Assembly: GCA_947652115.1 (NCBI GenBank)
Contig: OX393568.1
Location: forward strand, 17,411,971-17,475,970
Origin: Blastomussa wellsi
Lineage: Eukaryota; Cnidaria; Anthozoa; Scleractinia; Plerogyridae
Direction: 5' to 3'
Length of the DNA stretch: 64,000 nt
The first letter of the stretch is position 1, and each line of letters begins with the position of its first letter. Below, piece by piece: positions 4,171 to 63,983 of this stretch. The notes under the pieces are model-generated. The model made no database searches and was not told the DNA's origin. It saw only the letters and a list, made by a program, of their open reading frames with translations. The position numbers and the translations under genes are program-made.

Positions 4171-4935
4171 ATGAAGGTCAAAGCTGTTGTTGTTCTTGCC
4201 GCTGTTGTGTTGATCGCAAATTTGTTTACCGAGAGTGATGGCGCAACTAGTCCCTGCCCCGAGTGTAACTTTGGAGAAAGAGAGCTAAGCGATAAAAGAG
4301 AGGTTGGCTTTTTTTACCAGCTAATTTCACTCATAGAGAGTTTAGAGGAAGGTTGGATCGGCTCATTGTACTTGAATCTATTAGGTTTTAACAGCAATCA
4401 TCTTTCTTCACGCATCTTTTGATAGCGAGAGTTCTTTGGAAATTTAGTATCTGTTCGAGAATATTCTCACGAATAAACCTTGCGGTTCAAAAAAGAAAAC
4501 TGAAAGATGTGTTTTACAAGCTTTTAGTGCTACATCAGAAACATTTGCTCAAATCGGTGAGTGTGTTTATTCTCGTCGCTGGTCTCGTAGTATGTGATCA
4601 CGATGTGATGTGATGATATTGATAAACCTTGAGAGCAGTCTTTAAAGTTATAAGGATGAAATTGTCTGCTTCGTTTGCTTCTCTAGGAAAACAAAGAAAA
4701 AACTAAGCTGACTATAAACAAAACCGAAATGGTGTTTTTATGAAATTCCGGTAGTTTTCAATTCCTCTATAATACATCAGCACGCCTTTTAACTGATTCA
4801 GAATTTGGAAGCGACGAAAATGTTTATTGTGTTTTCAACATTGTTTGCCTGCAGATGAAGAGAGACGAAACGTTTACGAGGAGAGGGAATTTTGGGAAGA
4901 GAGCATCTGAAGATAGAAAAGAAGAAAAGAAATAA
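4171..4935 (+). CDS. P1: two-exon secreted peptide precursor (NFG-KR type)
   Basis: Exon 1 is 4171-4302 and exon 2 is 4855-4935. The intron is phase 0, with donor GAG|GTTGGC and acceptor TTTGCCTGCAG. The spliced product is 70 residues. Residues 1-24 form a signal peptide (hydrophobic core VVVLAAVVLIANLF, then ESDG). The secreted part has a CPEC motif, acidic and basic blocks, and dibasic sites at DKR, MKR, TRR and GNFGKR. The Gly before KR in exon 2 is a typical amidation signal, so a short peptide ending -NF-amide is possible. A TATA element lies at 4096-4100. I do not recognise the family. A neuropeptide-like precursor or a host-defence peptide would both fit. The splice model is inferred from consensus sites and frame continuity. 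Confidence 0.75.
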
Positions 4936-5288
4936 GTACTAAACCTCGGCGGAGTGATCATTCATGATGATAAAAAGCTGGTATGAAGATGATTAAAAAA
5001 ATGTTACTTTGAGAATTCTGTAAAGGGCTGATAAGCCAAAAGAAATTAAACATATGATTGAAACTACCTCAAGAGAAATTTTCTATCCGCGTCGGGCGAA
5101 CCACTTTGCGGCCGACAGCGAATGCAAAGTCTCTTAGACTTTTTAACCACAAAACAAATGTAACTACAATTTTTAAACCTCATTTTCAGTTTAAGCGTAA
5201 TTTTAAACATTTTATACGAGTACCGCAAACTGCATAAGAGATAACAAATTGTATGACACGGGTTAGATGTGGAAGTGATATAACAACT
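4936..5288. other. P1 3' flank, no gene seen
   Basis: This AT-rich stretch probably includes the P1 3' UTR. No clear AATAAA was found; the nearest variant is AAATTAAAC near 5042. No other coding signal. Confidence 0.4.
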
Positions 5289-5402
5289 TTTTGAGGGTAT
5301 ATTGTTTATTTGCGCCCGCGTAGTGTCATTTGCGGCCTTGCGCTTCGCGCTCTGGCCGCAAATGACACTACGCGGGCGCAAATAAACAATATACCCTCAA
5401 AA
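5289..5402. repeat. Near-perfect 114-bp hairpin
   Basis: Arms of 49 nt (5289-5337 and 5354-5402) are exact reverse complements, beginning TTTTGAGGGTATATTG and ending CATTTGCGGCC. The 16-nt loop holds a small stem, GCGCTTCGCGC. It is a foldback MITE-like insertion, or the fused ends of a larger element. The perfect arms suggest recent formation or gene conversion. Confidence 0.9.
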
Positions 5403-6039
5403 CGTCATTTTATCATCATTATTATCAATGTACAAGGACAAATAGCATCCAGATATAACTAACAAATTTAATAAGAATTTCTTCGCATTAGAAATTTTAG
5501 AGAAGTTGGATTACGTTTATTGTCGACATATTTTGGGCAAAATGCCAAAACATTATTCATTCCAGGCGATGTTCCATATACGGTCCTGCTCGACCGCCAA
5601 AAGAAAAGTAAGAGAAAATCAATCACACAGCAAAAAACGGGAACATTCCCAAGTAAATAAATTCTGAATTAAAAGGATAGAAAAGAAAAGAAAAAACGGA
5701 TCGTTATTTTTTTGTAAGATTCTAGTGTCGACGTGATACCCACAATCGCTTCCTGTTTTTTTCCTTTTTTTAATTCAAACACAGACACCAATAACAGGAG
5801 AGAAACTTACACAAGCGATACTTACACTGCCTTACAGCACAATCCTCCGTACACTACATTACGATATTAACACTACTTACCATACAAAGATTATGCTACA
5901 AATTTGCACCTTTCGAATGAAACTACATAACTGTTCGACTTTAAATTACACATATACCATATAGTAAAATAGCCCAAGTGTGATAGAAATTCGTTAGAGC
6001 TTTCTTTGCCGTCGCGATCCCTTTAAGAATTTCAAGTTT
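5403..6039. other. Gene-free interval
   Basis: Apart from the repeat copy at 5412-5475 I see no gene, RNA or clear repeat structure here. Confidence 0.4.
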
Positions 6040-7440
6040 TCCGTAAAGCTAGAGAAACAGTAGAAAGCATTGGAAATCTAAGATGTCTCCGGGAAGGCTT
6101 GTGCAGAAAATACAATATTTGGCTATAAGTAGACAATAATTTAGAGCTTGGCAATGCTTTGTTCTATCATGCCAGCCGTAAAGTATATGGGTTGTGACTA
6201 ACATTATTATTTCATTCGTTTTTTGGAGCCAACAATCTTCAAACAGAGTCCAGAAATCGACTAAAAGAGTGCAGTTTATTAGCAGGTGATGCAGAGTTTG
6301 TTGTTCGATGTTGCATAAGTTGCATATGGGGTTTTCTGAGAGGCCGTCTCGATAAAGTGTGACGCGGGTTGGAAGCACATTGTGAATCACTTTATACTGA
6401 AACATTGTTATTTTTACTTCATTTGTGACTGCAAATGGCATACGATAGACTTTCTGGATGGTGTTTTCAGTAAAACCGTGACGAAGTATTTTGGTCTCAG
6501 CAGTGGGAGGAACAAAAGATGGTTTTTAAAAGAGAATAGTAAATAGAACCGGTTTTTAGGGGGGTGACAGAGGTAATCTGTTCGACATTCGGAATTGGGT
6601 TTTTAAAAGCAGCTTTCCAATCTTTTGGAAATGCATTAACCAGATCATGATATTTAGTAAAAGGAACTTTCAGATTGCATTTTAATGCAAACTCATGCCA
6701 TTTTAAAAAGTCGCTGTTTTGGTTTAATTTGTCGCTTATCTTGGTAATGCCAGCGTCATACCAATTGTGGTAAAAGAATTTTCCTGTTGTTCCACAGTAG
6801 CTGATTTTTAGGATGCGTTTCGCAGTCGAGTCCTGTTGAGGTTTTGAATTCGTACCAATAATCTAACTTCTTTTTATAGAAGGTGGGAAGCTTCTCTTCG
6901 TGGTCGAGTATATTTGTTGGAAAGTTGCATTTTGTTAAGAAGGCAAGGCTTCCATGTCTTTGTAAGAGCTGGTTGGGGATTATTTTCCAGGAGGCTTGTG
7001 AATCGTCTTGAATTCTTTTGACTCAAGCTATTTTGAGTGCTTTTTCCATGATTTTAAAATCGCACATTTTCAGACCGCCATCTTTTTTTTCCAATTAAGG
7101 TATTTCTTTTGATTTTAGGGGCCTTCCCGCCCATATAAAGTCGAAAATTAGTTTATATATTTCTTGGACGTACTGATCTGGGACAGGTAGTACGGAGGCT
7201 GAATAAATCAATTTAGATACCCCAAGTGTTTTGACTATGTTGACCTTTCCATAAAGAGTTAAGTTTCTCCGTTTCCAAGTTTCGAAGCTTCCTGTTTTTA
7301 AAGATGTCTGTATCCCGTATACTTTGTCAAGCTTCGAAATTGTTGCAGAATTTTTGTTTTGCTTTAGAAATGAATATTTTATTTCTTTCCTTAAACAACT
7401 TGGGTAGGGTTTTGGTTTATATTTTTTTTGGCTTTATGTT
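6040..7440 (-). pseudogene. L1/Tx1-like LINE ORF2, 3' remnant
   Basis: Read on the minus strand, the stretch gives the distal part of an L1-type reverse transcriptase: GKVNIVKTLGVSKLIYSASV, FDFIWAGRPLKSK and KDGGLKMCDFKIM, with stops. At 6441-6049 the zinc-binding zf-RVT tail follows: TMFQYKVIHNVLPTRVTLY, then CNLC and HHLLINCTLLVDFW. Frameshifts and stops break it repeatedly. No RT catalytic YxDD is visible in the retained part. It is a 5'-truncated, inactive insertion in the P1-P2 interval. Confidence 0.8.
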
Positions 7441-7778: not shown

Positions 7779-8529
7779 ATGCTCATAAAGAAGGCTGTAA
7801 TATTTCTAGTTCTGTTCGTTCTATTATCACTTGTTGATGAAAACGAAAGTTACATCGGCGTGGTCGACCTTTCTACCTACAAGACGGTGACCAACTTTGC
7901 AGACGAGTGTGTGAAATGGAAAGACTTGCGAGGTCCTCTTAACTTCGGGCGCTGGAGAAAATTCAAAAAGTTAAAAAAAAGGGTAAATCAATGTTTCTCA
8001 ATTTTTAAAGCCTGAGTTTAATAGAAAAATTAACGAGGGAAATATGTTTTAGGGTGGGCATCTGTTTCCGACTTTCGGAATATGTATATATTTATAAGGC
8101 AAAATGACTACCTGTTTCCACCAAAATAGCTCGGAAGCGAAATTTTAAATTTATTTTTGAAATTTGCCAAATAATTTAATTTATAAAAATATTCAGCATA
8201 ACGGAACCTTTGGGCATGTTAGAAAAAAAGCTATTTGTTGAAACAGTGCTTCCTATCACTCAAAGTTCAGCGGCTTGCATACAGGAGTCTCGTTGGATTA
8301 ACTTTTTTGGAAAAATTTCATTAGGTGTTAAATGTCTTGTTTCTCAATTGAGATTATCGGGATATTTCCATGCCGTTTGCTTGTTTTTAGTGTTGTGGCA
8401 CCATAGCTTGGAATATATTCTTCAGTATACATTATTATTGAATTCTTAAACCCTTCTTCCTTGTTATGTTAGGTCAAATTCGAGGATGAAGTTTGCATTC
8501 AAGTTAAACAGAAGTATTGCTCAAAATGA
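7779..8529 (+). CDS. P2: two-exon secreted cationic peptide precursor with C-x7-C tail
   Basis: Exon 1 is 7779-7982 (68 codons) and exon 2 is 8473-8529. The intron is phase 0 (AGG|GTAAAT; TTGTTATGTTAG). The product is 86 residues. The signal peptide covers about residues 1-24 (IFLVLFVLLSLVDENES), and the secreted part begins near SYIGVV. The middle contains one Cys (DECVKW), then GPLNFGRWRKFKKLKKR, a strongly cationic block whose NFG-R could give an -NF-amide. After the KKR the second exon supplies VKFEDEVCIQVKQKYCSK, with C76 and C84 seven residues apart. AATAAA lies near 8663. Family not recognised; the acidic-then-cationic layout resembles antimicrobial precursors, and the dibasic/Gly sites resemble neuropeptide precursors. 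Confidence 0.78.
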
Positions 8530-9136: not shown

Positions 9137-9683
9137 TCAGTTGTATAAAGCATCGAACGCCTGCTTGAAAAAAAAAAAAAAGAAAATGGTTTACAGTTCG
9201 CGGCTTGGTCTCGCTTACTAGTAGGTTTCTCAGTATTAAAAGAGAATCGTAGGGTGAGGAATGGACATGATGAAAATTCTAAGGGAAATGAAAAAAAGGA
9301 ACTGGTTTAAAAGCCGTGAGTAAAAATATCATTGCATCGGGAACAAAGCCCTAATTAACTTCAAATTGACTAGTAAGGTGGAGAGGTGCTGTTACAAATC
9401 CTCTACTTTTCCACAAGTGTACGCTTAATTAAAGGCCGTAAGAATATATGTTTATCAGCAAAGGGCGTTTTACCTTTTTCTTGGTAAGTTTGAGTCCTCT
9501 CTGCTTCTTTGGAAACGTTTCAAAGTAGCGGCGCAATGGTACTTTTCTTTCAATTTTCCGCAGGCTGTTATCTGTTTCGTCATCAGGGACAGTACTAACA
9601 TAAGATTCAGCGTTGTCCATGACTACTGCCAAAAGGATTGTTAAAGAAACGACGAAAATCAGGCACCAGTTCTTGCTATGCAT
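9137..9683 (-). CDS. P3: two-exon secreted cationic peptide precursor, cysteine-free
   Basis: Exon 1 is 9683-9474 (70 codons). The donor AAG|GTAAAA is phase 0. The acceptor is a long T tract ending TTTTCAAGCAG, and exon 2 is 9160-9137, only seven codons (AFDALYN) plus stop. The product is 77 residues. The signal peptide is about residues 1-27 (WCLIFVVSLTILLAVVMDNAES), and the secreted part starts YVSTV, as in P2 (YIGVV) and P4 (YVTTI). The proregion is acidic (PDDETD), and the C-terminal half is strongly cationic (KVPLRRYFETFPKKQRGLKL, then TKKK). No cysteine is present after the signal peptide. I start at ATG 9683; the upstream in-frame codons begin with TTG. An arminin-like organisation (acidic pro-part, cationic end) is a structural analogy only. 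Confidence 0.7.
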
Positions 9684-14374: not shown

Positions 14375-16015
14375 ATGACTAGAAAGCTTGCTGCAGTTGC
14401 CACACTTCTTTTGTTTATCTCATCTCTAGTCGCTCAGAATTCAGCGTACGTAACAACAATAGAGAGACAACTGAAACTTTGTAGGAGCAACTCAAACGAA
14501 GATGACACCAGAGTTCGAAGATGGGGCTGGTGGGGCATGTCAAAGCCAACTCAGGTGCGTATAAATTACATTTGTCTGTATTTGAAAAAGTCCAAATGGC
14601 TCATGACTACTGCGTTAAAGGAGTTCTGTCACGGATGACACATAATGAAAAGTTCAGCCTATAAATGTTTCAATCGTCTTCATTCAAACCATCCTTGTTG
14701 CATCTTTGGTGTTTTTCTTCCTTGGTAAACAATTATTTCAAAATTTCCTTTGACTTGAGGCAATTTGAACATCTCGAAAGCCCTTTTAACTGCTGCCTCT
14801 CATGCTAGTCCATTGCAAGTTCCTCCCATATATACACCCCCGGTCGGAAAGAGGCGCTGTGTGTCTTGCCCAAGAACAAAATACAGTGTACCCGGACCTT
14901 TCGATCCGGAGTTTCTGCACACCAACCAATGATGCCACCGCACCTCCCTCTCTTTTTCCACCTAATTAATTATTTTTTGTACTGGACTTAATTTTCGCAA
15001 TTTTCATACTTCCAAAAAATGTCGCTAAATTGAAAACGCGCGAAAAGTAGTTATTTCTGAAACTGATGACGCAAAAATGCTAAAACGGTACCCCGCTGCA
15101 AAATTCTTTTATCAGCCTTAATGCAAGGTTGCATGTTCACGTTTTTTATCCTGAATTACACGGCCGTAATGTTTAGGATAAGGTTCTGTTCAATATCATG
15201 GTAAAACTGTTGAAGTTTTTAAAGACAATAACACGTACCCCAGGAAACGCTACATATCTCAACGGGAATTTTCATGACTTTACTAAATAACTTTGCCATG
15301 CAACATCTGGCGAAGACAATTGCTTTTAAATAAGGGAGCCTTAAGCTTCGGTGATATAGAATCTCGGTCCGTCTACAGAATCACAAGTTTTGTTATGGTC
15401 AAATTTTGATGTTATCACATCTTTTTCGTTAAATTTGATATTTCTTTTCGCTGAACATTTTCAGTGTTCTTTCAACTTCAAGATAATGAAGCAAGCAGAT
15501 GGGACAATATTAGCCACACTAACCTCGTTTGAAAGTAAAAATTCTTTCGAGTTACTAGCTCAAAAACGAAGTTATTGGGGCTAATTTAAATAAATAAAAA
15601 AGAATTGTTAGCCTTTTTTTGCCAGGATTTTGCAAATCGTTCTTCGGTTCGCGCCGCCGAGAGACTTTGTATTATCATAATCGGACATTTTGAACAGTAC
15701 AAGGTCGCAGTTAAGAAATGGTCGTTTCTAGTTAATAGTTGTTTATAGCAGAGAGAAATCGGTCGAAGTGTAAAGGGAATAAAATGTTCATCTCGTAGAC
15801 ACCTAACACTTTCAGTCCCTTATGTCCTTTTTTCGCAGCGACAGTGTAGCAGCTTCCGGTCTATACTTTGCGACAGCAAAATAGCTCCAGGTCTTCAGGG
15901 CAAAGCTCCTACGATCCCTCCATCCCTCCCAGCACTTCCTCCCTCGCTACCTCCACCAGACGCTCTACTAAAGAAGAGGACGAGACGATCAAGTTCTACA
16001 GTCAGGAAGGACTAG
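14375..16015 (+). CDS. P4: two-exon secreted precursor with C-x7-C and proline-rich tail
   Basis: Exon 1 is 14375-14554 (60 codons) and exon 2 is 15839-16015. The intron is phase 0 (CAG|GTGCGT; TCCTTTTTTCGCAG). The product is 118 residues. The signal peptide is residues 1-24 (LAAVATLLLFISSLVAQNSA), and the secreted part begins YVTTI as in P2 and P3. Exon 1 has one Cys (C36), an acidic NEDD and RVRRWGWWGMSK. Exon 2 begins RQCSSFRSILCDSK, with C63 and C71 seven apart as in P2 and P6. It continues with a proline-rich stretch (PTIPPSLPALPPSLPPP) and ends with basic KKRTRRSSSTVRKD. A possible 5' UTR acceptor (TTTTCATTTTAG) precedes the start. The intron holds a SINE copy. Function unknown. Confidence 0.72.
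14770..14945 (-). mobile_element. Truncated tRNA-derived SINE in the P4 intron
   Basis: It shares CATGCTAGTCCATTGCAAGT, GTGTCTTGCCCAAGAACA and the degraded B-box/A-box region (CTTTCGATCCGGAG, CACACCAACCAATG) with the SINE at 2375-2626. It is decayed and lies on the minus strand. Confidence 0.65.
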
Positions 16016-18944: not shown

Positions 18945-19442
18945 ATGCAAAGTAGATTCACAACCACATTGCTAGTACTTGTTTTAATTCTGTACGTACA
19001 GTGCATAACTAGCACCGATGCCGTGCATAGCATATGGCCTGGCCCCAAAAGACGACGACGTGGAAAGAGGACTTTAAAAAACTTAGAGGTAATAACTGTT
19101 TACCCAGTGTTTTTTTCAATCTTGGTTCACTTACAGTAAAAAAGGGTGATTTCGATTGATTCGGCTGATTAAATAGAAAACCCAATGAGACAGGTTTCGA
19201 TTTCCCAATTTTAGAAAGTTCTGCTGAATAAATCATACATTTATAAACTAAAGCAGGACGTATCAATTTTTTCACTGAAAGTCCCATGGACGGCTTTTGG
19301 TTACTCACACAACACTTTATATACTAAGGTACTCCTTAAGAGGGTTTCATCGAAGATGTCCCCCAGACAAATCAGCCCATTCATTTCTATGACCTTCAAG
19401 TATCTTCTGCAATGTGCTGTCAGACGGCTAAAAGAAATTTGA
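18945..19442 (+). CDS. P5: probable two-exon secreted basic peptide precursor
   Basis: Exon 1 is 18945-19088 (48 codons), with signal peptide residues 1-26 (TTLLVLVLILYVQCITSTDA) and secreted part VHSIWPGPKRRRRGKRTLKN then LE. It contains a run of four Arg and a G-KR site. The donor GAG|GTAATA is phase 0. Exon 2 is uncertain. The best in-phase choice is 19401-19442 (acceptor GACCTTCAAG), adding YLLQCAVRRLKEI and a stop, with AATAAA near 19500. A second acceptor 20 bases on (GCTGTCAG) also opens a short frame. WPGP-KRRRR here and WTPG-RKK in P8 are loosely alike. The first exon is convincing; the second is a guess. Confidence 0.55.
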
Positions 19443-20419: not shown

Positions 20420-21405
20420 TCGCGCGCCGGATACACATCGTCCATGAGGAAACAAATAACAAAATATCTCATGCCGGAAAATATGCCAAATATACATCGG
20501 CCAAGAGTAAACAAATAACAAAACATCTCACGCCGGAAAATATGCCAAATACACATCGGCCATGAGGAAACAAATAACAAAACATCTCATGCCGGAAAAT
20601 ATGCCAATTACACATCGGCTTTAAGTAAACAAATAACAAAACATCTCATGCCGGAAAATATGCCAATTACACATCGTCCATGAGGAAACAAATAACAAAA
20701 TATCTCATGCCGGAAAATATGCCAAATACACATCGGCCAAGAGTAAACAAATAACAAAACATCTCACGCCGGAAAATATGCCAAATACACATCGGCCATG
20801 AGGAAACAAATAACAAAACATCTCATGCCGGAAAATATGCCAATTACACATCGGCTTTAAGTAAACAAATAACAAAACATCTCATGCCGGAAAATATGCC
20901 AATTACACATCGTCCATGAGGAAACAAATAACAAAATATCTCATGCCGGAAAATATGCCAAATACACATCGGCCATGAGTAAAGAAATAACAAAACATCT
21001 CATGCCGGAAAATATGCCAATTACACATCGTCCATGAGGAAACAAATAACAAAATATCTCATGCCGGAAAATATACCAAATACACATCGGCCATGAGTAA
21101 ACAAATAACAAAACATCTCATACCGGAAAATATGCCAAATACACATCGGCCATGAGGAAACAAATAACAAAAGATCTCATGCCGGAAAATATGCCAATTA
21201 CACATCGGCTTTGAGTAAACAAATAACAAAACATCTCATACCGGAAAATATGTCAATTACACATCGGCCATGAGGAAACAAATAACAAAACATCTCATGC
21301 CGAAAAATATGCCAATTAAACGTCGGCCATGACGAAACAAATAAAATATCTCATGCCGGAAAATATGCCAAATACATATCGGCCATGAGGAAACAAATAA
21401 AACAA
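20420..21405. repeat. 59-bp minisatellite, about 16-17 copies, with 4-unit higher-order repeat
   Basis: The unit is AAACAAATAACAAAACATCT followed by CATGCCGGAAAATATGCCAA and a variable end ending CATCGGCCATGAGG or similar. The variable end cycles through TCCATGAGG, GCCAAGAGT, GCCATGAGG, GCTTTAAGT, and this order repeats exactly twice (about 20441-20677 and 20678-20915), a higher-order period near 237 bp. The cycle then decays. 59 is not a multiple of 3, so the array is not coding. Confidence 0.95.
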
Positions 21406-21853: not shown

Positions 21854-24800
21854 TCAAGTAAAGTCTGTCATTAACTTTTTGAGGCCGAGTACAATACGGG
21901 CAGCGAAGTTCTGTACTAACTGGAGTTTCTTGATGTTATATAGTTTACTGAAGACAAAGGAACTCATAAGGAGAAGTATTGTTTTCTTATCTAGCAAGTG
22001 TTTAATTCTATTTATTTGTATAAGTTTATGTAGGCAGGTAGAGACAGTTTTAGTAATGTGATCATTATAAGTTAGTGACTGGTCAATGTAAATGCCAAGA
22101 TCCTTAGCAGCAGTAACAGGTATAATTTCTTTTCCGAGCATCCGAACAGATACTGTGGTCAGCTTATGAAGGAGTTGAGGCACACCAATCATTAGGACTT
22201 TGGTCTTATCAGGATTTATCAATAAAGAATTTTGACAACACCATCTGGAGACACTTTCCAGGTCGGCATTTATATTGTCAATTGCAGTGGATATGTCAGA
22301 CGAGGGAAAGGACAAGTACAGTTTAGAATCATCAACATAACAGGCCGATTTGCAGTGTGTGGGGACAGACAACAGGTCATTTACATAAATAGTAAACAGG
22401 ACTGGGCCCAATATTGATCCTGAGGGACTCCATATTTCAGTGGAAGTGCCTCAGAGATAGCATCTTGGATGCGTACTCTTTGACTACGGCCAACAAGGTA
22501 GCTATGGAACCAGTTGAGACTTTGAGAGGAGACATCCAGTGCTTGTAATTTCTGCAATAAAATATGCTGTCAAAGGCCTTTGACATGTCAAGTAACACCA
22601 GAGCTGAGATCTTTTTATCATCAATAATAATAGCCTGCAGCAGTTCGTCTGTAACGCCGAGAAGGGCCGTTTCAGTTGAATGAAGCTTGCGATTACCACT
22701 TTGAGTTTTAGCCAACTTCTTGTTTGCTGTTAGATAGTCGGCAAATTGTTCGTGAGCCAGACGTTCAGCCACCTTTGAAAGAATTGGCAAAAGGGAAATT
22801 GGTCGATAGTTGCACGGATCTTCAGAATTACCTGACTTTGGGATAGGAGTCACCTCGGCAATTTTCCATGCCCTCGCAAAGGTTCCGGTATGAAAAGAAT
22901 TGTTCATAATGCTTGTGATTGATGGAAGAATTACTGGTAAGCTGTCCTTGAGCACTCGTGCAGAGACTTTGTCATAACCAGGTGCTTTATTTGAAGGGAA
23001 GCCATTAATTACAAGCTCAACATCCTTATCTAACACCGTATGAAACTGAAAAGCTACTAAGCACGGATCAGGTGTGGGTTCCAAAGCTGATATAATTGGA
23101 TAAGTATCGAAATTATGTTCAATAGCAAGGTCCCGAGCTTTCTGGGGAGTCATACCTAATAATAATAATAATAATAATTTAATTATTATATTGCGCGCTT
23201 TCCATAAAATGATCAAGCGCGCATTACATATAATAATTAAATACAGAATATCTAAATAATACTTATTAAAAATACCATAATAAAAATCGAAATATACAAT
23301 GCATGTCAAGGTAATAAAAATTTTCAATAAAAAAATCGAAAGTTCAATCAATAAAAGTTTCCTTAAAAAGGTGCGTTTTCAGATGGCACTTAAAAGTCCG
23401 TAGATCTGTAACAGAACGAATCTCACGCGGTAATACATTCCAAAGTGCCGGAGCTGCGACTTGGAATGATCTGTCTCCTAATGTAACCCTACTTCTATAA
23501 GTTGGCGTTGCAAGCAACAAACTATCCGTGGAGGATCTTAAATTAAAATTTCCTGGACTTTTAATCGACACAAGTTCTCTTAAATACTTTGGCCCGATTC
23601 CATGGATGGCCTTAAAAACAAACAGTAGAATCTTAAAACTAATGCGTTGCCTAACCGGTAGCCAGTGCAGTACTCCACTGACGTAAAGTATTCGTTGAAT
23701 TTATTTACCAGAGCAGTTGGATTTTCAGCCGCAAAGGGACAATTTCGACTTTTCCTTGGCAAACAGTTGTTAATAATCTTCCAGATTGCATTGGCGTTTC
23801 CTTTGCTATTAAGCAGTTCAGTTCACACATGGTTTTTTCTGAAAATCTTAACTCACGCTTTACTTCCTGTCTGAAGCATCTATATGCATTCCAGTGAAGG
23901 CGGTCATTAGACCTGATTGCTCTTCTATGCCATAGATCACGGGTCTTCATTAGCTGGCGGATTTCTTCTGTAATGAAAGGATTTGGTCTAGCCTTTATCT
24001 TAATTCTCTTAATTGGGGCGTGATCATCTAAAACATTTGTAAATAAGGCGTTATGTGTGTCCACCTGGTCGTCGAAATCATCAAACATGGAAATCATGTG
24101 GAATGGAACAAATGCCAGATCCTCACGAAAGCGCTCAGCATTATAGTTAGAGTAACTCCTGATGGTAATATAGGAGGGCTTGAGTCTGGGGGATTTTATT
24201 GTTAAGACAAGATAAATGAGATGATGATCACTTATAGAGCAAGAAAGTACATCACTGAGGCTGACAATGTTCTTATTTGTAGTCATGATGACATCAATGA
24301 GGGATGTAGTCGTCTCGGTGATCCTTGTTGGTTTCGCAACCAGCTGGTTTAAGTTGAAAGTTGAAACAAAGTCCCGCAATGATTTAGACACAGGGTTAGA
24401 GGCCAACAGGTTGCAATTTAGATCTCCAAGTATAATAATATCCAAGTCCAAGAGTAACGCATCAACGAAGCTTTTAACAAGAGTTTCAAAGCAGCTGGTT
24501 GGTGTGTCGGGAGGTCGATGGTGTTACAGACTAAAAATGATTTATGACTTCTACACTGCACTCTCAGCCAAAGCTGTTGAAAACCATCTCCGCAAACTAG
24601 TGACAGATCATCAAGGACAGTGATTTTTAGGTTTGATTTGGCATAGATGCATAAACCACCTCCATTTTTGTATGATCCACGATCTTGTCTGAAAAGTTGA
24701 TAACCAGGGATCTGAAGACTTGCATCACTCACAGTTAAGTCAGCCCACGTTTCAGATTTGGTGAAAATATCAAAGTTATTTTGTAGAATCGCATCTTTAA

Positions 24801-27638: not shown

Positions 27639-27700
27639 CAAAAAACTAAACTAAAATACCACAAGGAAACAAAGAGGACAGGACAAGGGGAGGAGGAGGG

Positions 27701-30780: not shown

Positions 30781-30831
30781 AAATAACTTAACATTAAAAC
30801 AACACAGGAATTGGCCGATACGATGCCAAAA

Positions 30832-32099: not shown

Positions 32100-32146
<47 letters not shown>

Positions 32147-34554: not shown

Positions 34555-34663
34555 GATAATAACGGTTTGACAGCTTTCTTTGACATCTCTCTCTTAAGTA
34601 TATGTTCCTAAAAGTTGTGATCAAAAGAACTGCCTCAAGAACAACAACAGTTTTGGCCTTCAT
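34555..34663 (-). pseudogene. P1-like signal-peptide exon, degenerate
   Basis: From ATG 34663 the minus strand reads MKAKTVVVLEAVLLITT, against P1 MKVKAVVVLAAVVLIAN. DNA identity is high for about 50 bases, and the sequence before the ATG (AGTTGAAGAATGAAGG against AGTTAAAGAATGAAGG) also matches. After residue 17 the copy loses the signal-peptide end and the CPEC region, continuing as RNIYLRERCQRK, and no P1-like second exon was found. The Glu inside the hydrophobic core and the lost proregion suggest a dead paralogue, although a diverged functional gene cannot be excluded. Confidence 0.6.
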
Positions 34664-34690
34664 TCTTCAACTCCCTATACACGTTTGTTC

Positions 34691-34730
34691 CCTTATAATA
34701 TATATCTTTTCTGGAACAAAAGCGCCATTG
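34691..34730 (-). promoter_or_regulatory. P1-type promoter in front of the P1-like pseudogene
   Basis: On the minus strand: GGCGCTTTTGTTCCAGAAAA then GATATATATTATAAGG. It corresponds to the P1 promoter at 4069-4103 and lies at a comparable distance from the ATG. Confidence 0.5.
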
Positions 34731-35319
34731 ATAACTATTGCAACTTAATAGACCTTTTTTTATCGGTACGACAGCCATTTTGATTTCTATCGTTTTCAAA
34801 GATATTATAAGATGCCCAGGGGGCAGATTAATATTACTTGCCCCTCTGGGCGTCCCGTATCTGTAAAAAGGTGTATTGTTCAAAATGCCGGCTTTCTTAT
34901 GAAGTTGTAACGACAAGTTTATCGATATATCCCTACATGGAAAAACTCGGCACAAACGGCACGACCTGAGAACTTGTGGCACTACTGAAAGCGCTACACT
35001 GGCTTCGCGACGCGTTACATCCTTGTTGCCAGTTTAGGAAAAAGCAACAACAAAACGCACAGTATGTAATTTCAATTTGCTGTAGGACGGCTTTTCTTGC
35101 TTTGCTTGTGGCGGTTTCGCAGGACAATATAAGGAAGATTGCTGGGCATCTGGCATCCTCGGAGACCCAGGGGCGGTTACTCGAACAACACGTTATCAAC
35201 TGAGCAGCAAAACGGTGCGAATGAAATCGTGAGAGAGGATGCGACTCTCTATTGACCAGTTCCAACACTCATTCGAATGCTTACCTCTATTTTTGTGGCC
35301 AATGCAATGTGAAATGTAA
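34731..35319. other. Gene-free interval
   Basis: No supported coding exon. A GCCCAGGGGGCAGATTAATA then TTACTTGCCCCTCTGGGC palindrome-like pair is seen near 34815-34850. Confidence 0.4.
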
Positions 35320-38592: not shown

Positions 38593-39806
38593 TCAGCGTT
38601 CGATTCTACAGCCCATGCGTACAGCAGCATCACACAACTGACGTTTGGCTAGAAAACGCTTGTAATCTTCATCCTGCAAAGAAACAATAGAAAAAAAGAA
38701 AGTGGGTATTGATAGTCAGAATGGCATTTCTTTTTCACTTATGTCCCGTAGATCTGGAAAGAAGCAGACTAACAACAATTTTCATAAAGAGAACAACACA
38801 TTTGAATCTGAATTTACAAGACATGTTTCAGTCGTTCAACTACCATCTTCAGTTGAATGTATAATTATTTTGAAGTTACATTTGAATTTATAATATATAA
38901 CTGCTAAACAATGATAAATAACAAGCGTGAAATAAATTAGGAATCTAACAAAATAGCCAAAGGGAACAAAAGAGTGTACAATAGTAACGTGCTGATTAGA
39001 ACGAGAGAATTAAACTAACATGATATAATTGTTTGTTTAGAGAAGGTTGCTCCCAGGAAATATGAATACAATTACGAAAATTACTAAAATAGCGTTTTTA
39101 GTCATTTTCGTAACATTCGCAATTTTAGTTGGATTCGCAGTTTCGTCAAGGGCCTCCTTGAACTGTCTTAAAATTTCTCTTGCGAATTCAGGAAAATTTC
39201 GCAATTTTCGTAAAATTCGCAATTTTAGTTAAATCTGCAGTTTCGCTTTTTGTGGATTCTGCAAAAGTTTGACATTTTCGTAATTTCCGTAAAATTCAAA
39301 ATTTCAGTTAACTTTGCAGTTCCGTCGAGGATCCTCCTTGAACTGGCTTGACATCTCTTCTCGAGAATTCTGGATTGAACGCAATTGCAAAATTTACAGA
39401 TTTTAGTAATTGTAGTAATTTTCGTAAAATTCGCAATTTTAGTTAAATTTGCATTTTCCTCTAAACTCTTTTCGCGAATTCTGTGAAATTTCGTAATTGC
39501 GTTCAAGGGACATATCTCTTCTTTTTCAGCTTACTCGCTGTCGACCAATCAAGTTGAAAAGGGATAAACGATGCGAAATTATTAAAGTCGTCCGGCTGTT
39601 TCAGTTTCCTGGGGCCACAATTGCGGGAAAATATTATTTGTAAGATACAACAATAACTGACTCACCATAAAGACCTTCTTCTTGCCACACCATTCTGACC
39701 CCTTCGGACAACTTTTTGTAGGTCCGTTGAAAGCATCAGATTTGATGAAAAACGAAACCAGGGCGAGAACTATGCAGACTAAGTAAAGAAACATCTTGGG
39801 TGTCAT
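38593..39806 (-). CDS. P6: two-exon secreted four-cysteine peptide precursor
   Basis: Exon 1 is 39806-39666 (47 codons from ATG 39806) and exon 2 is 38673-38593. The intron is phase 0 (ATG|GTGAGT; TTGTTTCTTTGCAG). The product is 73 residues. The signal peptide is about residues 1-24 (MFLYLVCIVLALVSFFIKSD), and the secreted part begins AFNGPTKSCPKGSEWCGKKK. C33 and C40 form a C-x6-C pair ending in Gly-Lys-Lys, so a cyclic Cys-amide peptide is possible. Exon 2 gives DEDYKRFLAKR, then QLCDAAVRMGCRIER with C61 and C69 seven apart. A TATA box is at 39885-39878 and AATAAA near 38568. The best-supported gene model of the set; family unknown. An upstream in-frame TTG extension is rejected. Confidence 0.83.
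39047..39500. repeat. Degenerate AT-rich repeats in the P6 intron
   Basis: Three to four decayed units share CGTAAAATTCGCAATTTTAG, TTAAATTTGCAGTTTCG and CTCCTTGAACTG, with a spacing of roughly 110-130 bp. They look like an old local tandem array. Confidence 0.65.
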
Positions 39807-45437: not shown

Positions 45438-46865
45438 ATGGCGTCTATCTGGCCGTTAATTCTATTCGTCACCTATCTTTTACTCTTCAGCATCTTTTCA
45501 AATGGATTAGCTTTTATGGATGACGAAACCAATCCAGACACTTACAAAGGAGAAGACATGGACTTAGTTGGGAATTCGAATACAGACATGTCCGCAGGTG
45601 GGACACTTAATGTGCTTACCATTGGGCACACCTGAATATTTAAAAATGAATAACTCATTATTTTGAGAATTTTACCTAATTTCCACAAACGTTCATCAGA
45701 AGGGCTAATGCAATTTAGGATTTTATTTATATGGTCACATCATTCTGATTAATAACAGAATTCTCTTTATGAGTGGACTAGTCTGACCGGCCAGTTCTCA
45801 CAGTTGATGGTAAGCGTCCCCAAGTAATATTTATGTGTAAAACTAAATATTGGAAACCATAAAAAATACGTGTATCATTCATATCAAACTTGGCTGAGAA
45901 TAACTGAAAAAGATAGATAAAATTGCTTGATCTTGACCCAACGTTGAAGTTACAGTTTACTTTGTTCGTTAAATTTTACAAGTCTTTGGGAACAAAGGGA
46001 TGAATTAAAGCCTGTTTTCTCTAAATTAAGCCGACAGATCACTTTCTTCTTATACCTGTTTTGAAACGAGCATTTATATTTTTAAAAAAAACTTGACCAA
46101 TGAATGTATAGTTGTAATGTTTTTTTTCGCTTCAGATAATATGATTTAATAGTGATGATATGCTAACCTGGGTTTTCATCGTCATCCTTTGTTGGTTATA
46201 TAGACGTAATAACTGAATTACATTTTCTTTTTCATTGGAGACTCAGGGGTCGTATTAACGATATACGCCCGAGTAGAAATAGGCCGTGTGGGACAGATTT
46301 GGTTGAATTAATGGGAAGAAGATATGATATTAATTACGATACATATCCACAGCCAATCAGAAAAGCTGAAAAGCAAAAATTAAAGATAATTTGGATTCAT
46401 TAGAAAACAAAAAAATTAAAATAGGTTTTGTCACCGGTTTTATATGAAATCTTGACTTACAGATGTTTGGTTTGAGTTTGAAAAAAGGCAGCTTTATTTC
46501 TTGTTCAGCATAAGTGTGGTCCACTTTGCGTTTAAAACATCTCTCTATTTTTATGAAAGCTTTTTGCGAAATTAATTTAGGACAAGAAAAGAAGTGAATT
46601 GAGTTTTAAATCTTCTATTTATATTGCAGGTGAACTAATCCAGCAAGTCCATGCTCCTTCACTGCCAAAACCACAGACACGGAGAATCGGAAATCGGTAT
46701 CCCCCTTGTTCGAGCTACGGCTGCGGTAAAAGAGAAATGTATACTCGCAAACACGCTATGCCGTATGGTTTTCTGGCATCTAAGAATCGTCAATTACAAC
46801 GTAAAAGAGCAAAGAAATTAGCCGAGCCTCCATGCGGCAGATATGGTTGTGGAAAACGCAAATAA
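45438..46865 (+). CDS. P7: neuropeptide-like precursor with two PPCxxYGCG-KR copies
   Basis: Exon 1 is 45438-45597 and exon 2 is 46630-46865. The intron is phase 1 (GCAG|GTGGGA; TTTATATTGCAG). The product is 131 residues. The signal peptide is residues 1-25 (ILFVTYLLLFSIFSNGLA), followed by an acidic spacer FMDDETNPDTYKGEDMDL. Exon 2 holds TRRIGNRYPPCSSYGCGKR (Cys 80 and 85) and near the end AEPPCGRYGCGKRK (Cys 122 and 127), separated by a basic linker with several K/R pairs. Each copy would be released at basic sites, the Gly turned into an amide, and the two Cys joined in a small C-x4-C ring with the second Cys C-terminal. This is the pattern of a preprohormone. I do not recognise a named family. 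The nearest following gene is a GPCR. Confidence 0.85.
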
Positions 46866-48492: not shown

Positions 48493-49557
48493 TCATTGGA
48501 TGCTTTGTGCCCGATCAAAAGCAGAAAGGCTTACGTCATCAGTTTTTCGGCGAGTGGAACGCAGATTACTACGAATGGAACCGCGATCACTGCGACGAAG
48601 GAAGACTTTTCTAAAGCCTTGGCGAAAATTTTCATTGAAAATAAAATACAGGCAGGGGCTGATGCAACCGTTGGAAAAGGCAATAAACGTAACCCAGAAA
48701 AATAATGAGCCTATATAGCACGGGACGTTGGAGCCCCATTGAAAGAGAACGATATAGACTGACACGTTTACTGGTAACCAACAGCATATAAAAACAACTA
48801 CGACAGCGATGACCATCCGAAGGACGCTCCGGTTGCGTTTGGCTACCCTTTTCTTGTCTTTTAGAGACTGGTTGCCTGGAAATTTCTGCCGCTTAAGAGT
48901 AAGGATGATAATGCCATAGACGATTGTCAGAATGGCTGCTGGGAAGAAAAAGAAGGTGATGGATAATATTACAAAGTAGACTGTTTGCACCTTGCTGTGA
49001 TCGAGGAATGGACTCCAGTTGTACTTGCAGAAAGAGTCGTTCTGCAGCTTGTAAGCGTAGAAATAAGGCAAGTGCAAAAGCGCGGCCACTAACCATGTAG
49101 CCGCCAAAACAACACGGCGGAATCCGCCACCACTCGTAAGGCCAGCCTTCATCGGGAAAACCACGCCGTAAAATCTATCAGTCGCAATTGCCACCAAGCT
49201 AAGGATGGAAACGGCGGTTGAGACATCTTGGATGAAGTAATCAAACTTGCAAAGCACCGATCCAAACACTCCGCCAACAAACCACCGCTTAGGCTCCGAG
49301 TGTAGTTCCGATATTATGCGCGGAATGACAAACACAGTGAAGAGGATGTCAGAAGCGGCCATATTTACTATGAAGTAATTTATGGTGGACCTCATGCCAC
49401 GGTTCTTAAAAATGATGAGTATAACAAGAGAATTTCCAAGTAAAGAACCGAAGGCAATGACGCAGTATGCGAACGTCTTCCATGATGTTTCCGTTGACGG
49501 GTCTTCGGGAAAACCACATGGATTTGACACATTAGTCACCGTGTCATTGGCAGACAT
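48493..49557 (-). CDS. Class A (rhodopsin-like) G-protein-coupled receptor, single exon
   Basis: 354 residues, intact. The N-terminus has two glycosylation sites (N4, N9). Seven membrane segments are near 29-51, 60-82, 100-125, 147-168, 191-216, 247-271 and 281-306. Landmarks: N42 (GNSLVI), D70 (MAASDILF), C103 with C177 in loop 2 (disulfide), D127-R128-F129 in place of DRY, W155, P206, CCWLP at 258-262, and SPCLY (300-304) where NPxxY is usual, so the TM7 Asn is replaced by Ser. Helix 8 is FNENFRQGFRKVF, followed by a basic Ser-rich tail. The overall look is that of peptide or amine receptors of the many intronless cnidarian class A receptors; no ligand can be read from the sequence. Confidence 0.95.
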   Translation of the reverse strand: MSANDTVTNVSNPCGFPEDPSTETSWKTFAYCVIAFGSLLGNSLVILIIFKNRGMRSTINYFIVNMAASDILFTVFVIPRIISELHSEPKRWFVGGVFGSVLCKFDYFIQDVSTAVSILSLVAIATDRFYGVVFPMKAGLTSGGGFRRVVLAATWLVAALLHLPYFYAYKLQNDSFCKYNWSPFLDHSKVQTVYFVILSITFFFFPAAILTIVYGIIILTLKRQKFPGNQSLKDKKRVAKRNRSVLRMVIAVVVVFICCWLPVNVSVYIVLFQWGSNVPCYIGSLFFWVTFIAFSNGCISPCLYFIFNENFRQGFRKVFLRRSDRGSIRSNLRSTRRKTDDVSLSAFDRAQSIQ

Positions 49558-57618: not shown

Positions 57619-58003
57619 AACTCTTCGTTAATCGATGTAATAGGCTATGATTTAATTCAGTCAGATCAACTAAGGCTAAATGACGAAATATCTGATTGCA
57701 GTTTCCTGTTTTTAAAAACATAAATGAAATTATTATATGTCTTTGCTGTTGTTAAATGGTATATCGATTATATTATTTACGTTTTGTCTGTGTGGAATAA
57801 AAGTCTCAGTTATTTTAGCCTGCAAAGCAGGCGGTTTTTATGGGGGAATGCTTCGAAAACAGCGATTACGAAAGACCGGCCGCCATTTTCAGCGCGTGAA
57901 CACCGGGGAGAGGAAAAAGAGAGGGGTAGGGGGTAGGGTGGAGGGTCTAGTGAATTGTCCGTCCACAGAGGGACGGAAAATTCTGATTGGTTGTTACTGA
58001 AAT

Positions 58004-58970
58004 TTGTCAATCAATCTGTCAGCATTGGATACCATTTCTGACTCTTTCTTGAAAGATGGACCTGTGAACGATTGTATCGAAGCAGCACTTGATATCTTTC
58101 TTGATAGCATCAATGAATTGAAAGAAAGTAATCGAAGGATCATCCTCAAAGAAGAACAGCTATTAGCAGTGAAAGATTTGATGAATGGGAAGGATGTTCT
58201 AGCCATTCGTCCGACTGGTTTCGGAAAGAGTATGATATTCACTGTGTTCTGGTTTACAAGACACGAGTGTTTGAATCGAGCGGGAAAAAATGGCATAACC
58301 AGCGTTTTAGTCATAATTTTCGCCGTTGAAAAGCCTGATTGATCAGATTATGGAATTGCGTTCAATGAATTGCACTGCTGAGGAGCTAAGCACACAGGGG
58401 CGCCCATACAAGCGGTGTGTCTGGTTGTATGTTCGAATTATAAAGAAATGTATGGGAATACTGAAGAGTCTTAATATCGTAGACTTATATAGAGTAATGG
58501 CTATAAAATAAACGCAAACTTACCTCAGGTGTTGTATTTTGTCGTTTCTGCTGCTCAAAATGGCGAATCTGAGCGATTTGGAAGGTTTTGCGTTCAAGCA
58601 ACAGCCAACGCAAAACCTTCCAAATCGCTCAAGTTCGCCATATTGAGCCGCAGAAACGACAAAATACAACACCTGAGGTAAATTTGACTCTTCAATAAGA
58701 CTCTTCAATATTCCCGTACACTTCTTTATAATTCGAACATACAAACAGACACACCGCTTGTATGGGCTCCCTGTGCTAAACAGCGGTAACATTTCCAAAA
58801 TCGTAGTGACACCCGCAGTTCATCTACTGCACTGCCGAACAGGTACTCACGATAATAAATTTCTTGCAGTCCTAAAAGACAACAATAGCAAATTACATCA
58901 AAGCCTAGCAGCAGTGGTAGTGGACGAGCCTCACACTGTAGAAACGTGTACGGGAAGAAGGTGAGTTTCA
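58004..58970 (+). pseudogene. RecQ-like helicase fragment (motifs I to II)
   Basis: The translation gives LKEEQLLAVKDLMNGKDVLA then IRPTGFGKSMIFTVF, i.e. the Q motif and Walker A (TGFGKS). After a frameshift come LKSLIDQIMELRSMNCTAEE (motif Ia region) and, beyond a 383-bp insertion, FLAVLKDNNSKLHQSLAAVV then VDEPHTVETCTG, a DExH box with DEPH. It ends at a donor-like GGAGAAGGTGAGT-type site (near 58970). Motifs III-VI are absent, and no ATG starts the frame. RecQ-type helicase genes of this kind are abundant in cnidarian genomes. It is not functional here. Confidence 0.8.
58393..58775. mobile_element. Near-perfect foldback inserted in the helicase fragment
   Basis: The outer arms CACAGGGGCGCCCATACAAG...CGGTGTGTCTG and CAGACACACCGCTTGTATGG...GCTCCCTGTG match, and the central arms (CTCAGGTGTTGTATTTTGTC ... 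GACAAAATACAACACCTGAG) pair again. CTAAGCA precedes and CTAAACA follows, a probable 7-bp target duplication with one change. It splits helicase motifs Ia and II. Confidence 0.82.
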
Positions 58971-61485: not shown

Positions 61486-61494
61486 TATAAAAAG
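61486..61494 (+). promoter_or_regulatory. TATA box of P8
   Basis: TATAAAAAG, 48-56 bases before the P8 ATG (61542). A short upstream frame (ATG 61513 to TGA 61540) lies in the presumed leader. Confidence 0.6.
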
Positions 61495-61541
61495 CATCTA
61501 CTCACGGGAGAAATGAATAATACGCAAATACAGCTGAAGTG

Positions 61542-63983
61542 ATGGAAATCAAGATCTTTCCAATATTGCTGAGTGCCTTACTTCTCCTATGGACTTCACA
61601 GGAACTCGACGGATATGTATCACCGTGGACACCAGGAAGAAAGAAAAACGAAATTTGGCAAAAGGTGAGATTGTTGATGTGTGTTTTCTTTGTCGCCGTC
61701 AATAGAAACCTTTAGATCCTACGACGAGGACGACTACGAGTACGAGATCGTTAAGGCGAGCAAAGACTAATGGGTCTAGTTTCCAGTCGGACGAATCTCT
61801 GTCCACTCTGGATTCCCTGTCTGCCGCATTGTTGTAAATGCCGGGGATGTGATGTGCTTTGAGAGAGATCTCTCTCTGGAGGCACCATTGCCAGATCTCA
61901 TAAAATCAACTTGCGATACTGGTGCCAAAACTGCGTTAAATTTAGAATATTTAAACCACAAAACAGAAACCAAAGCATGGCTATGAAAAAATTATCAGAC
62001 ATGATAAGAAACCAGCTGAAATATCTCGATAGAAGTCTAACTGCTTCAATAAATATGACCGTGCTAACTTTGCTACTGGTGAGGCCATTTTGTTAGTACG
62101 CTCGAAAAAACTTCAAGTCAAATCTCGTACTCGCAGTCGTCCTCGTCGGTCTCTTATGAAGGACATTTTGCTGAAAACCAGTAAGTTAAGGTGGCTCCGT
62201 AGTTATTACGAGCGAATTCGTCATTGCCAAACTTTGCGTCATAACTTTGTCGGCTTTAGCGCGATGGCAATGAAACTTTAACAAAACTTTCTCCTATCAT
62301 CCAGTAATGGTATAGTTATATCTGATTTAACTGATGAAAAATACTTTTAATGTTATTGCCGTTTTCATGGACCTACCCACTAGAAAAAAATTGCATCCAG
62401 CAAAAAATTTTGCTGATAAATTTTTTGCTAAATTTATAGAATCAGCGCGTATTAACTTAATGCATATCATAGCCAAGTTTCAAGAAAATCGTTGGAGCAG
62501 AATTGCGGAAATCTTACGGTCTCTTATATTCAGCTTTATTATTTTTTTTTATATTTTCTGTACTTGATGCTCTTTGACGAAACGAGCCACGAACCTAAAT
62601 TTCTGTGAGAAGCCTCACCAATGCTTGCTAAGTTATAGTGCCAGGCCGATTGTCGATCGTCCAAACTGTTAAAAAATATTCGCTAGTTCTGTAAACATTA
62701 TAAAATGGTCGGTAACCTCCTCACACCTTCAAAGTTGCCTTTTACAACATTTTTCGAAAACTATACCCTAGTTTTATGTCATATTTCCTCCGCATGATTT
62801 TCAAGATATTTTTGCCTCGACTTTTGTTGCTTTGCCACGCTGCGAATTTGAGAATTACAGTTGGTATTGTAACACACTCTGCGACTGATCTCTGGCAAAA
62901 AAGACGAGCAGTTTTGTTTATGTAATTTTGAATATGAAATGAGCACGTGCGGCAAAATTCGCGCCTTTATAAGGGGGCGTCAGTGATATTCAACAATATC
63001 ATAATTTAAGAAGTGTGTTAAAAACATCAAGGCAAACAAAAGAAAATCCTCGTCTTCCCTCTCCTCCTGGGGTGGTCAGCGCGTATATCACTGACGGTGA
63101 GAATTCTTTTGATAACTGCCGCACGTGCTCATTTGGTATTCAAAATTACATAAACAAAACTGCTCGTCTGCTTTGCCAGAGATCAGTCGCAGAGTACGTT
63201 ACAATACCAACTACAATTCTCAAATTCGCATCACGGCACAGCAGCAAAAATCGAGGCAAAATTATTGTAATATCTGGAAATTCATGTGCAGGAAATATGA
63301 CATAAAACTGAGGTATAGTTTTCGAAAAATGTTGTAAAAGACAACTTTGAAGGTGCGAGGAGGTTAAAGACCATTTTATAACGTTTACAGAACTAGCGAA
63401 TTCTTTTTAACCGTTTGAACGATTGGCAATCGGCTTGGCACTCTGACTTAGCAAGCACTGGCGAGAACTCTCACAGAAATTTGGGTTCGTGGCTTGTTTC
63501 GTCAAAGAGCATCAAGTATACAATGATAAAGCTGAAAAAAGAGACCATAAGATAAGGAATATTCTCTTGACGTTTCATGTGTTGATAGCGTGGTGCTCTC
63601 GATATAGTTATTACTTTAATTGCGAAATGTCAAAGTCTTAAGTAACAAGCTAGATATGCTAATTTACTGTAGATTGCAAATGCACGTGCAATAAGCTACG
63701 TATGCTGATTTGCTGTGAGTTACATGTGCACGTGCAACACCCTTCCTTTCATAAAAAAAAAGAAAAAAAAAAAAGAAAGTGAACATTAATAAATAAAATC
63801 ACGAAACGCACGATACAGAGTAACAGTTTGTGCTATAGCGTAATCCATGAAATAAATCAAAGTACTTCATGTCTCGATGCCCCACAGCTGTGCGAGTGTT
63901 CAACTAATGTTCATTACATAATCTTTGAATCTGGAGAGCAACTTCCGATTCCTAGACGACCTCCGCAGCACGATTTCCGGTGA
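61542..63983 (+). CDS. P8: probable two-exon secreted peptide precursor (WTPG-RKK type)
   Basis: Exon 1 is 61542-61664 (41 codons): signal peptide residues 1-24 (IFPILLSALLLLWTSQELDG), then YVSPWTPGRKKNEIWQK. The secreted start YVS matches P3 (YVST) and resembles P2 and P4. G-RKK is an amidation-type site, giving a possible YVSPWTP-amide. The donor AAG|GTGAGA is phase 0. The proposed exon 2 is 63888-63983 (acceptor GATGCCCCACAG): LCECSTNVHYIIFESGEQLP then IPRRPPQHDFR and a stop, 72 residues in all. The 2.2-kb intron contains a MITE (61703-62155) and a 1-kb foldback. Exon 1 is well supported; exon 2 is the only in-phase candidate I found and may be wrong, the real one lying beyond the window. 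Confidence 0.58.
61703..62155. mobile_element. MITE, family A copy 2, in the P8 intron
   Basis: AACCTTTAGATCCTACGACG then AGGACGACTACGAG at the left and CTCGTACTCGCAGTCGTCCT then CGTCGG inverted at the right. The inner GACCGTGCTAACTTTGCTAC and AAACTTCAAGTCAAATCTCG segments match copy 1 at 56576-57020. Confidence 0.8.
62511..63553. mobile_element. 1.04-kb foldback element in the P8 intron
   Basis: Arms of about 470-480 bp (62511-62992 and 63081-63553) are inverted copies: CTTGATGCTCTTTGACGAAA ... on the left, TTTCGTCAAAGAGCATCAAG on the right, down to GCACGTGCGGC / GCCGCACGTGC near the centre. The loop is about 90 bp. The arms differ by scattered changes. No coding capacity. Confidence 0.85.
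63554..63887. other. Remaining P8 intron sequence
   Basis: Short duplication TGCACGTGCAATAAGCTA(C)G..TATGCT / TAGATATGCTAATTTACTGT against CGTATGCTGATTTGCTGT at 63650-63740, then an A-rich run at 63752-63780. No other feature. Confidence 0.5.

Follow-up and report, generated by a model that had tools for sequence, protein, structure and literature searches.

What do the small signal peptide genes clustered in a 64,000 bp stretch of the genome of the stony coral Blastomussa wellsi encode, and do they form one family or several? The stretch (C12:17411971-17475970, referred to as the window) contains eight such genes, designated P1 to P8. It belongs to a genome of 367.8 Mb in 124 contigs and was examined along with 100 kb on each side (264 kb in total). 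The roughly eight genes, comprising seven two-exon models and one unpartnered exon, are probably precursors of small secreted peptides that belong to several families and would most likely be neuropeptides or local hormones. Several of them are apparently undescribed. In the sequence this reading is based on an excess of signal-peptide frames and basic pairs and on the conserved second exons of P4, P6 and P7.

Signal peptide exons and gene layout

Signal peptides were called using a rule-based scan and compared to dinucleotide-preserving shuffles. The window contained 16 signal-peptide-like frames, including all of P1 to P8, compared to a mean of 2.98 and a maximum of 6 in 40 shuffles. The same scan found 7 frames in the left 100 kb and 10 in the right 100 kb (4.5 and 6.4 per 64 kb, respectively). 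The window is thus denser in these frames than its own surroundings. A strict scan for signal peptides accompanied by a basic pair as well as a good donor had 6 matches in the window (shuffle mean 0.4, maximum 3, N = 40) and 9 in the flanks (mean 1.5, maximum 4, N = 15). The window match at 49703 begins upstream of a receptor gene and was excluded from the peptide gene count. The flank matches were five receptor pieces, three precursor-like frames (-55956, 82353, and 85793 in window numbering) and one at 77143 in the right flank, for which a search yielded no supported second exon. A ninth signal-peptide-like frame at 43076 was rejected as its DNA appeared repeat-like by eye. Frames 22564 and 24267 were rejected as they lie opposite frames of a long interspersed nuclear element (LINE).

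The eight mature parts contained 41 basic pairs compared to 23.3 in shuffles of the same residues, and this number was reached by 0 of 5,000 shuffles. Such an excess is typical of processed precursors. P7 had eight basic pairs plus two GKR sites and the other seven genes had three to six. Amidation-ready sites (Gly-basic-basic) numbered two in P7, one each in P1, P5, P6, and P8 and none in the others. Each mature part had 0 to 4 Cys. The basic-pair excess, the amidation-ready sites and the Cys loops point to signalling peptides released by processing.

Two-exon models were rebuilt from splice signals for all genes except P5. The introns are phase 0 in P1, P2, P3, P4, P6, and P8 and phase 1 in P7. 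The donor matched three of seven consensus positions in P1 and five or six in the other six modelled genes. The open frame following 392 acceptor-like sites in the window had a median length of 12 codons, reaching at least 18 codons in 35% of cases, at least 58 in 3.8% and at least 78 in 1.3%. Short second exons were rejected as evidence of a common design since this length is expected after any acceptor-like site. A mature part beginning Y(V/I) in P2, P3, P4, and P8 had a chance probability of 2.5e-6, or 5e-4 after multiplication by 200 dipeptide classes, and relatives of P4 retain a Y(V/I/L)T start.

The original prediction of eight signal peptide exons, charged secreted parts with K/R pairs and a common Y(V/I) start in four genes agrees with these results. 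The cluster end that it gave, 63983, equals the stop of the rebuilt P8 model. It had also assigned one intron to each gene, phase 0 in seven and phase 1 in P7. This stands for six phase 0 introns and for P7 but not for P5, where the donor would be phase 0 and the second exon is unsupported. A very short second exon as a common design was not upheld, as the second exon spans 58 codons in P4 and 78 in P7 and short ones arise by default. The two amidation-ready Cys-loop units of P7 and the surrounding receptor genes had been missed.

No Pfam match above cut-off was found for P1 to P8 and the PDB search of the peptides likewise gave none. A tRNA scan and a 200-base bacterial promoter scan led nowhere. 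The search of spliced proteins against a protein collection covered P7, P6, and P4. It gave relatives for P4 and P7 but not for P6.

Gene P7

The second exon of P7 encodes two units, PPCSSYGC-GKR and PPCGRYGC-GKRK, in the contexts NRYPPCSSYGC-GKR and LAEPPCGRYGC-GKRK. GKR is the classical amidation and cleavage site. The exon was present in three of six candidate proteins in the protein collection (E 6.9e-27 to 1.1e-23). The two units were the best-kept parts, at identities of 0.89 and 0.94, compared to 0.76 for the spacer that separates them and 0.54 for the linker that precedes them. P7 looks like the precursor of two amidated Cys-ring peptides.

Processing rules described for Nematostella include cleavage at basic pairs, amidation at Gly and prolines at positions 2-3 beside an acidic residue (PMC11087051). 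The proline pair of unit 2 follows an acidic residue and resembles the cleavage motif measured there (PMC11087051). No Pfam match to P7 was found at E up to 1, hence none for neurophysin. Pattern scans returned 15 stretches in viral contigs and 77 in prokaryote contigs, with no relative among them. The unit motif strings gave nothing relevant in the portion of the literature covered, the only match being on copper binding in E. coli.

Gene P6

P6 is part of a tandem family with two intact paralogues in the right flank, whose second exons read E(K/E)MD(N/S)SAIKR followed by QLCDAAERLGC and a stop. The motif KR|QLCDAA(E/V)R(L/M)GC is common to P6 and both paralogues. When the 264 kb were scanned blind for C-x7-C frames shaped like a second exon and preceded by a basic pair, three of the four matches were the P6 family. 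The first peptide varies, being FNGPTKSCPKGSEWC-GKKK in P6 and VMNGAGQGRPG-GKR and FGNGPMQG-GKR in the paralogues. As the first peptide differs and the second loop is kept, the precursor seems to combine a variable amidated peptide with a fixed loop. The loop motif strings of the family had no match in the literature searched.

Gene P4

Spliced P4 matched 6 of 59 candidates in the protein collection at E up to 10. The three annotated ones are Oculina patagonica ACROYT_G019027 (E 9.6e-50, covering 100% of the query), Orbicella faveolata LOC110055552 (E 1.1e-37) and Pocillopora damicornis pdam_00015324 (E 2.4e-28), all from stony corals and with no characterised function. The P4 splice junction is confirmed by these annotated relatives, which run across it with R-x-C-x7-C, and the likeness to the Oculina protein is full length. 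The P4 stop (14375-16015) falls about ten codons short of where the Oculina protein ends. The other three matches read through into the predicted intron. NSAY, IER, one Cys and RVRRWGWW are among the features invariant across P4 and the six matches.

With an identity of 60-79% to relatives from three coral genera, P4 is not itself fast-diverging. Mean identity among the four spliced members was highest between the Y and RVRR (0.76), with 0.65 in the signal peptide and 0.57 to 0.67 elsewhere. The secreted part is about as conserved as the signal peptide, which is not the pattern of an arms-race peptide. Nothing above cut-off was found for the P4 family in Pfam or PDB.

Relationship among the genes

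The mature parts were compared pairwise against shuffles and 3 of 28 pairs fell below p 0.05, the lowest being 0.028. Signal peptides were alike in several pairs, which is expected from their common make-up. A P4-family profile matched P2 over the signal peptide and Y start (pairwise P 9.4e-4, the lowest of seven comparisons). It gave nothing of note against P1, P3, P7, P8, or the P6 family, and P2 against the P6 family also gave nothing. In a separate test, the mature part of P3 scored above all but 14 of 500 shuffles and that of P5 above all but 18. A window scan with the profile placed only the two P4 exons above threshold, with the P2 exon next (E 0.22). P2 with P4 is the only pair for which the hint is clear, and these two genes may be related.

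Kinship of P4 and P6 through C-x7-C was rejected as the profile comparison was empty. Some Cys spacing common to three second exons arose in 658 of 20,000 shuffles, or 166 of 20,000 with P7 left out, and so Cys spacing alone is weak evidence of kinship. A single fast-diverging family was rejected given the few pairs below p 0.05 and the conservation of P4 across genera. The genes appear to be several peptide precursor families side by side.

The original prediction had proposed repeated duplication with fast divergence. Local duplication is shown for P6, which has two intact paralogues plus a decayed copy in the right flank, and for P1, with the broken copy that had been claimed for it. A single diverging cluster was too strong a claim given the pairwise scores and the 60-79% identity of P4. 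The hints for P2, P3, and P5 point the other way. The statement that no described family has these sequences agrees with the lack of Pfam matches above cut-off and of relevant literature for the motif strings.

Genes P1, P2, P3, P5, and P8

Coordinates of all features are listed in Table 1. The putative two-exon model of P1 was built from splice signals, with a weak donor, and from an NFG(E/K)R repeat common to both exons (p 0.0016, the lowest among six genes tested). P1 and its broken copy were 84% alike over 64 nt around the start codon and 84% over 51 nt upstream, with three weaker pieces in addition. The models of P2, P3, and P8 are predictions from splice signals, and that of the P3 second exon is weak. 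P8 has an amidation-ready unit directly after the signal peptide. A second exon of P5 was looked for and none was supported.

A signal peptide exon in the left flank, at -55956 (window numbering; L006), encodes AVSVIWKSGVKPGRLTRK after the signal peptide. A second exon was sought for this gene and none was found. By eye, the P5 sequence and that of the -55956 exon resemble the start of P8.

Table 1. Features of the locus. Positions are in window numbering except those of the eight flank receptors, which are given by L number. Signal peptide exons (exon 1) start at the lower coordinate on the plus strand and at the upper coordinate on the minus strand.
Feature	Position	Strand	Remarks
P1 exon 1	4171..4302	+	Signal peptide, then ATSPCPECNFGERELSDKRE; weak donor
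P1 exon 2	4855..4935 (incl. stop)	+	...RRGNF-GKR...; splice signals and internal repeat
P1 broken copy, signal peptide part	34611..34674	-	Start codon at 34663
P1 broken copy, upstream part	34699..34749	-	84% like P1 upstream
P2 exon 1	7779..7982	+	Mature start YIGVV
P2 exon 2	8473..8529	+	VKFEDEVCIQVKQKYCSK; predicted from splice signals
P3 exon 1	9474..9683	-	Mature start YVSTV; only one place in genome
P3 exon 2	9137..9160	-	7 codons; weak prediction from splice signals
P4 exon 1	14375..14554	+	Signal peptide, YVTTIERQLKLC...RVRR-WGWW; kept in corals
P4 exon 2	15839..16015	+	RQC-x7-C and proline-rich tail; junction backed by three annotated relatives
P5 exon 1	18945..19088	+	VHSIWPGPKRRRRGKR after signal peptide
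P6 exon 1	39666..39806	-	Signal peptide, FNGPTKSCPKGSEWC-GKKK
P6 exon 2	38593..38673 (incl. stop)	-	DEDYKRFLAKR, then QLCDAAVRMGCRIER; common to two paralogues
P6 paralogues, intact	Starts 82353 and 85793 (L013, L014)		Right flank, 18-22 kb past window
P6 third copy, decayed	Near 87.4-87.6 kb		Right flank
P7 exon 1	45438..45597	+	Signal peptide and acidic spacer
P7 exon 2	46630..46865 (incl. stop)	+	Phase 1; conserved in three proteins
P7 unit 1	46701..46733	+	PPCSSYGC-GKR
P7 unit 2	46827..46862	+	PPCGRYGC-GKRK
P8 exon 1	61542..61664	+	Signal peptide, then YVSPWTP-GRKK
P8 exon 2	63888..63983 (incl. stop)	+	LCECSTNVHYIIFESGEQLPIPRRPPQHDFR; predicted from splice signals
Intronless rhodopsin-class receptor gene	48493..49557	-	7tm_1, E 1.8e-48; 1.6 kb past P7
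Eight flank receptors	L008 3621-4811; L009 1728-2861, 6291-7475; L010 331-1485; L016 80-1204, 5558-6655; L017 1344-2399; L021 363-1685		

Receptor genes

Signalling peptides of this sort usually have rhodopsin-class receptors as their targets. The best 60 of 777 PDB matches to the receptor encoded at 48493..49557 were headed by neuropeptide FF, tachykinin and somatostatin receptors, and no vasopressin or oxytocin receptor was among these 60. A search of the 264 kb with this receptor as query brought up eight more intact receptors, each in a single frame, along with five broken pieces. 7tm_1 was above the curated cut-off in all nine intact frames. Three receptors on the right are 56-60% alike and two on the left are 61% alike, with other pairs at 19-41%. 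P1 to P8 and the two P6 paralogues are flanked by a receptor group on either side, and a single receptor lies among these genes. The -55956 exon lies outside. The nearness of receptors to peptide genes, counted in 264 kb only, may be chance, and the pairing of neighbours as ligand and receptor is a guess.

Mobile elements and other sequence

An element at 27405-31729 (-) has a tyrosine-recombinase-like frame at 30415-28814 (Phage_integrase below cut-off) and an SGNH/GDSL hydrolase frame at 31431-30832. Its split direct repeats, 27405-27641/27969-28205 and 27701-27979/31451-31729, are 98-99% alike and no reverse transcriptase frame was noted in it. It resembles a Ngaro-type element that has lost genes. 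LINE-type remains at 21854-24933 (-) include endonuclease and reverse transcriptase pieces in several frames. Judged by eye, frames at 6049-7433 (-) resemble the terminal part of a second LINE-type element. At 20431-21400 a 59-base unit is repeated in tandem (16.5 copies with 90% matches). A DEAD/DEAH-box helicase-like piece at 58001-58342 (+) scored 24.7 bits, just under the family cut-off of 26.

Comparison with known peptides

A signal peptide, as in preprohormones, was present in 8 of 8 genes according to the rule-based scan. Similar copies of a unit numbered two in P7 and at most one in each other gene. Units were kept in relatives for P7, at the identities given above, and for the last unit of P6 in its two paralogues. 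The first P6 unit was not kept.

The ring of vasopressin and oxytocin is C-x4-C, the same size as that predicted for P7, and P7 is without neurophysin. The vasopressin/oxytocin bridge joins Cys-1 to Cys-6 (PMC9545775). CCAP is PFCNAFTGC-amide (PMC4422128). P7 likewise has a P before the first Cys and is predicted to end in G-C-amide. The CCAP ring is C-x5-C compared to C-x4-C in P7, and the proposed membership of P7 in the CCAP line fails on ring size. Scyphozoa and Cubozoa have cyclic peptides of the type C-x-x-x-M-C-W-F-R-amide and kin (PMC6909153), which have a C-x4-C ring and an amidated end as predicted for P7. Unlike these, the second Cys of P7 would be the amidated end and two prolines precede the ring, and no residues other than the two Cys are evidently in common (PMC6909153). 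The scyphozoan and cubozoan cyclic amidated peptides and, in outline, CCAP appear to be the closest cases to how P7 would work.

One survey describes seven neuropeptide families in Scleractinia (PMC7523074). The P7 Cys-ring peptide is not among these in its main text (sections 8 and 9). The automatic search of that survey demanded at least three similar copies, and P6 and P7 would escape it for this reason (PMC7523074). The same survey accepts single-copy precursors such as Antho-RWamide (PMC7523074). In precursors of the Antho-RWamide type the neuropeptide comes directly after the signal peptide, and P6 and P8 likewise have a unit with an end of G plus basic residues at this place. Unlike that type, the P6 and P8 units have no RWamide or N-terminal Q, and P6 has a Cys loop at this position and a second in exon 2 (PMC7523074).

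Proposed processing and alternative explanations

The precursors would enter the secretory path and be cut at basic sites (RVRR in P4, AKR in P6, and GKR in P7). The units ending in G plus basic residues (two in P7 and one each in P1, P5, P6, and P8) would be amidated. P7 would yield a six-residue disulfide ring, PPC-x-x-Y-G-C-amide. P6 would yield two loops, the amidated FNGPTKSCPKGSEWC-amide and QLCDAAVRMGCRIER, and the leading Q of the latter could cyclise. P6 arose in a tandem family, where the first peptide has varied and the second has been retained. The most likely targets of the peptides, as neuropeptides or local hormones, would be rhodopsin-class receptors, and the 264 kb hold nine intact genes of this class. 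Several points weigh against this. Cleavage, amidation, disulfides, and receptor action are predictions. P4 has no Gly-basic-basic site and an odd number of Cys (3), and the predicted structure of its Oculina relative has low confidence (predicted local distance difference test score 53.8). The protein collection in which P6 had no relative includes coral proteins. Every mature part is basic, with an isoelectric point of 8.8 to 12.7, like many defence peptides.

This last property also fits host-defence peptides, in which cationic, Trp-rich or Cys-looped parts, once freed at basic sites, would perturb the membranes of microbes, with the cluster a result of duplication under microbial pressure. 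RVRRWGWW is kept in seven of seven P4-family sequences, RRWGWW strings turned up in two publications about synthetic antimicrobial peptides, and both P6 and P1 were duplicated. However, the amidation-ready P7 units of fixed sequence resemble receptor ligands. P4 is conserved between genera and its best-kept part precedes RVRR rather than running from WGWW onward. Host defence is considered unlikely. Venom-like peptides stored in cnidocytes would also be consistent with small, secreted and partly Cys-containing peptides in a cnidarian genome, but the Cys are few, no Pfam match was above cut-off and P4 is conserved and not fast-changing, making this highly improbable. The original prediction had named defence, venom-like or hormone peptides. 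The small, secreted, processed nature of the peptides stood, with hormones the best fit and defence and venom ranking lower.

It is also possible, if doubtful, that the likeness in layout has a largely mechanical cause. A gene-poor, repeat-rich region next to a cluster of receptors would then by chance contain small secreted-protein genes that are unrelated and in part wrongly modelled. Such an origin is consistent with the short second exons expected after any acceptor (median 12 codons), the 25 of 28 mature pairs with p of at least 0.05 against shuffles, the unsupported second exon of P5, the weak P1 donor and a receptor count that covers 264 kb and is not genome-wide. Against it stand the 16 signal-peptide-like frames compared to the lower density in the flanks, the basic-pair excess, the Y(V/I) starts and the outside backing of the P4, P6, and P7 models. 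Precursors of several signalling peptide families are preferred.

A bolder form of this preferred reading is a linked ligand-receptor neighbourhood, in which new coral peptide families, including PPC-x-x-Y-G-C-amide, act on adjoining receptors, the two duplicating and staying together. At its boldest the P7 ring would be the anthozoan counterpart of the CCAP/vasopressin line. The linked neighbourhood is itself a speculative and rather improbable proposal. A small group of orphan anthozoan receptors shows affinity to receptors of the CCAP/vasopressin line (PMC11087051), and a word search of the main text of the same paper for linkage of peptide and receptor genes found nothing.

Significance

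P6 and P7 are conserved, small, easy to synthesise and located beside receptor genes, which makes ligand and receptor directly testable. If neighbours do pair, genome position would be a shortcut to the ligands of many orphan cnidarian receptors.

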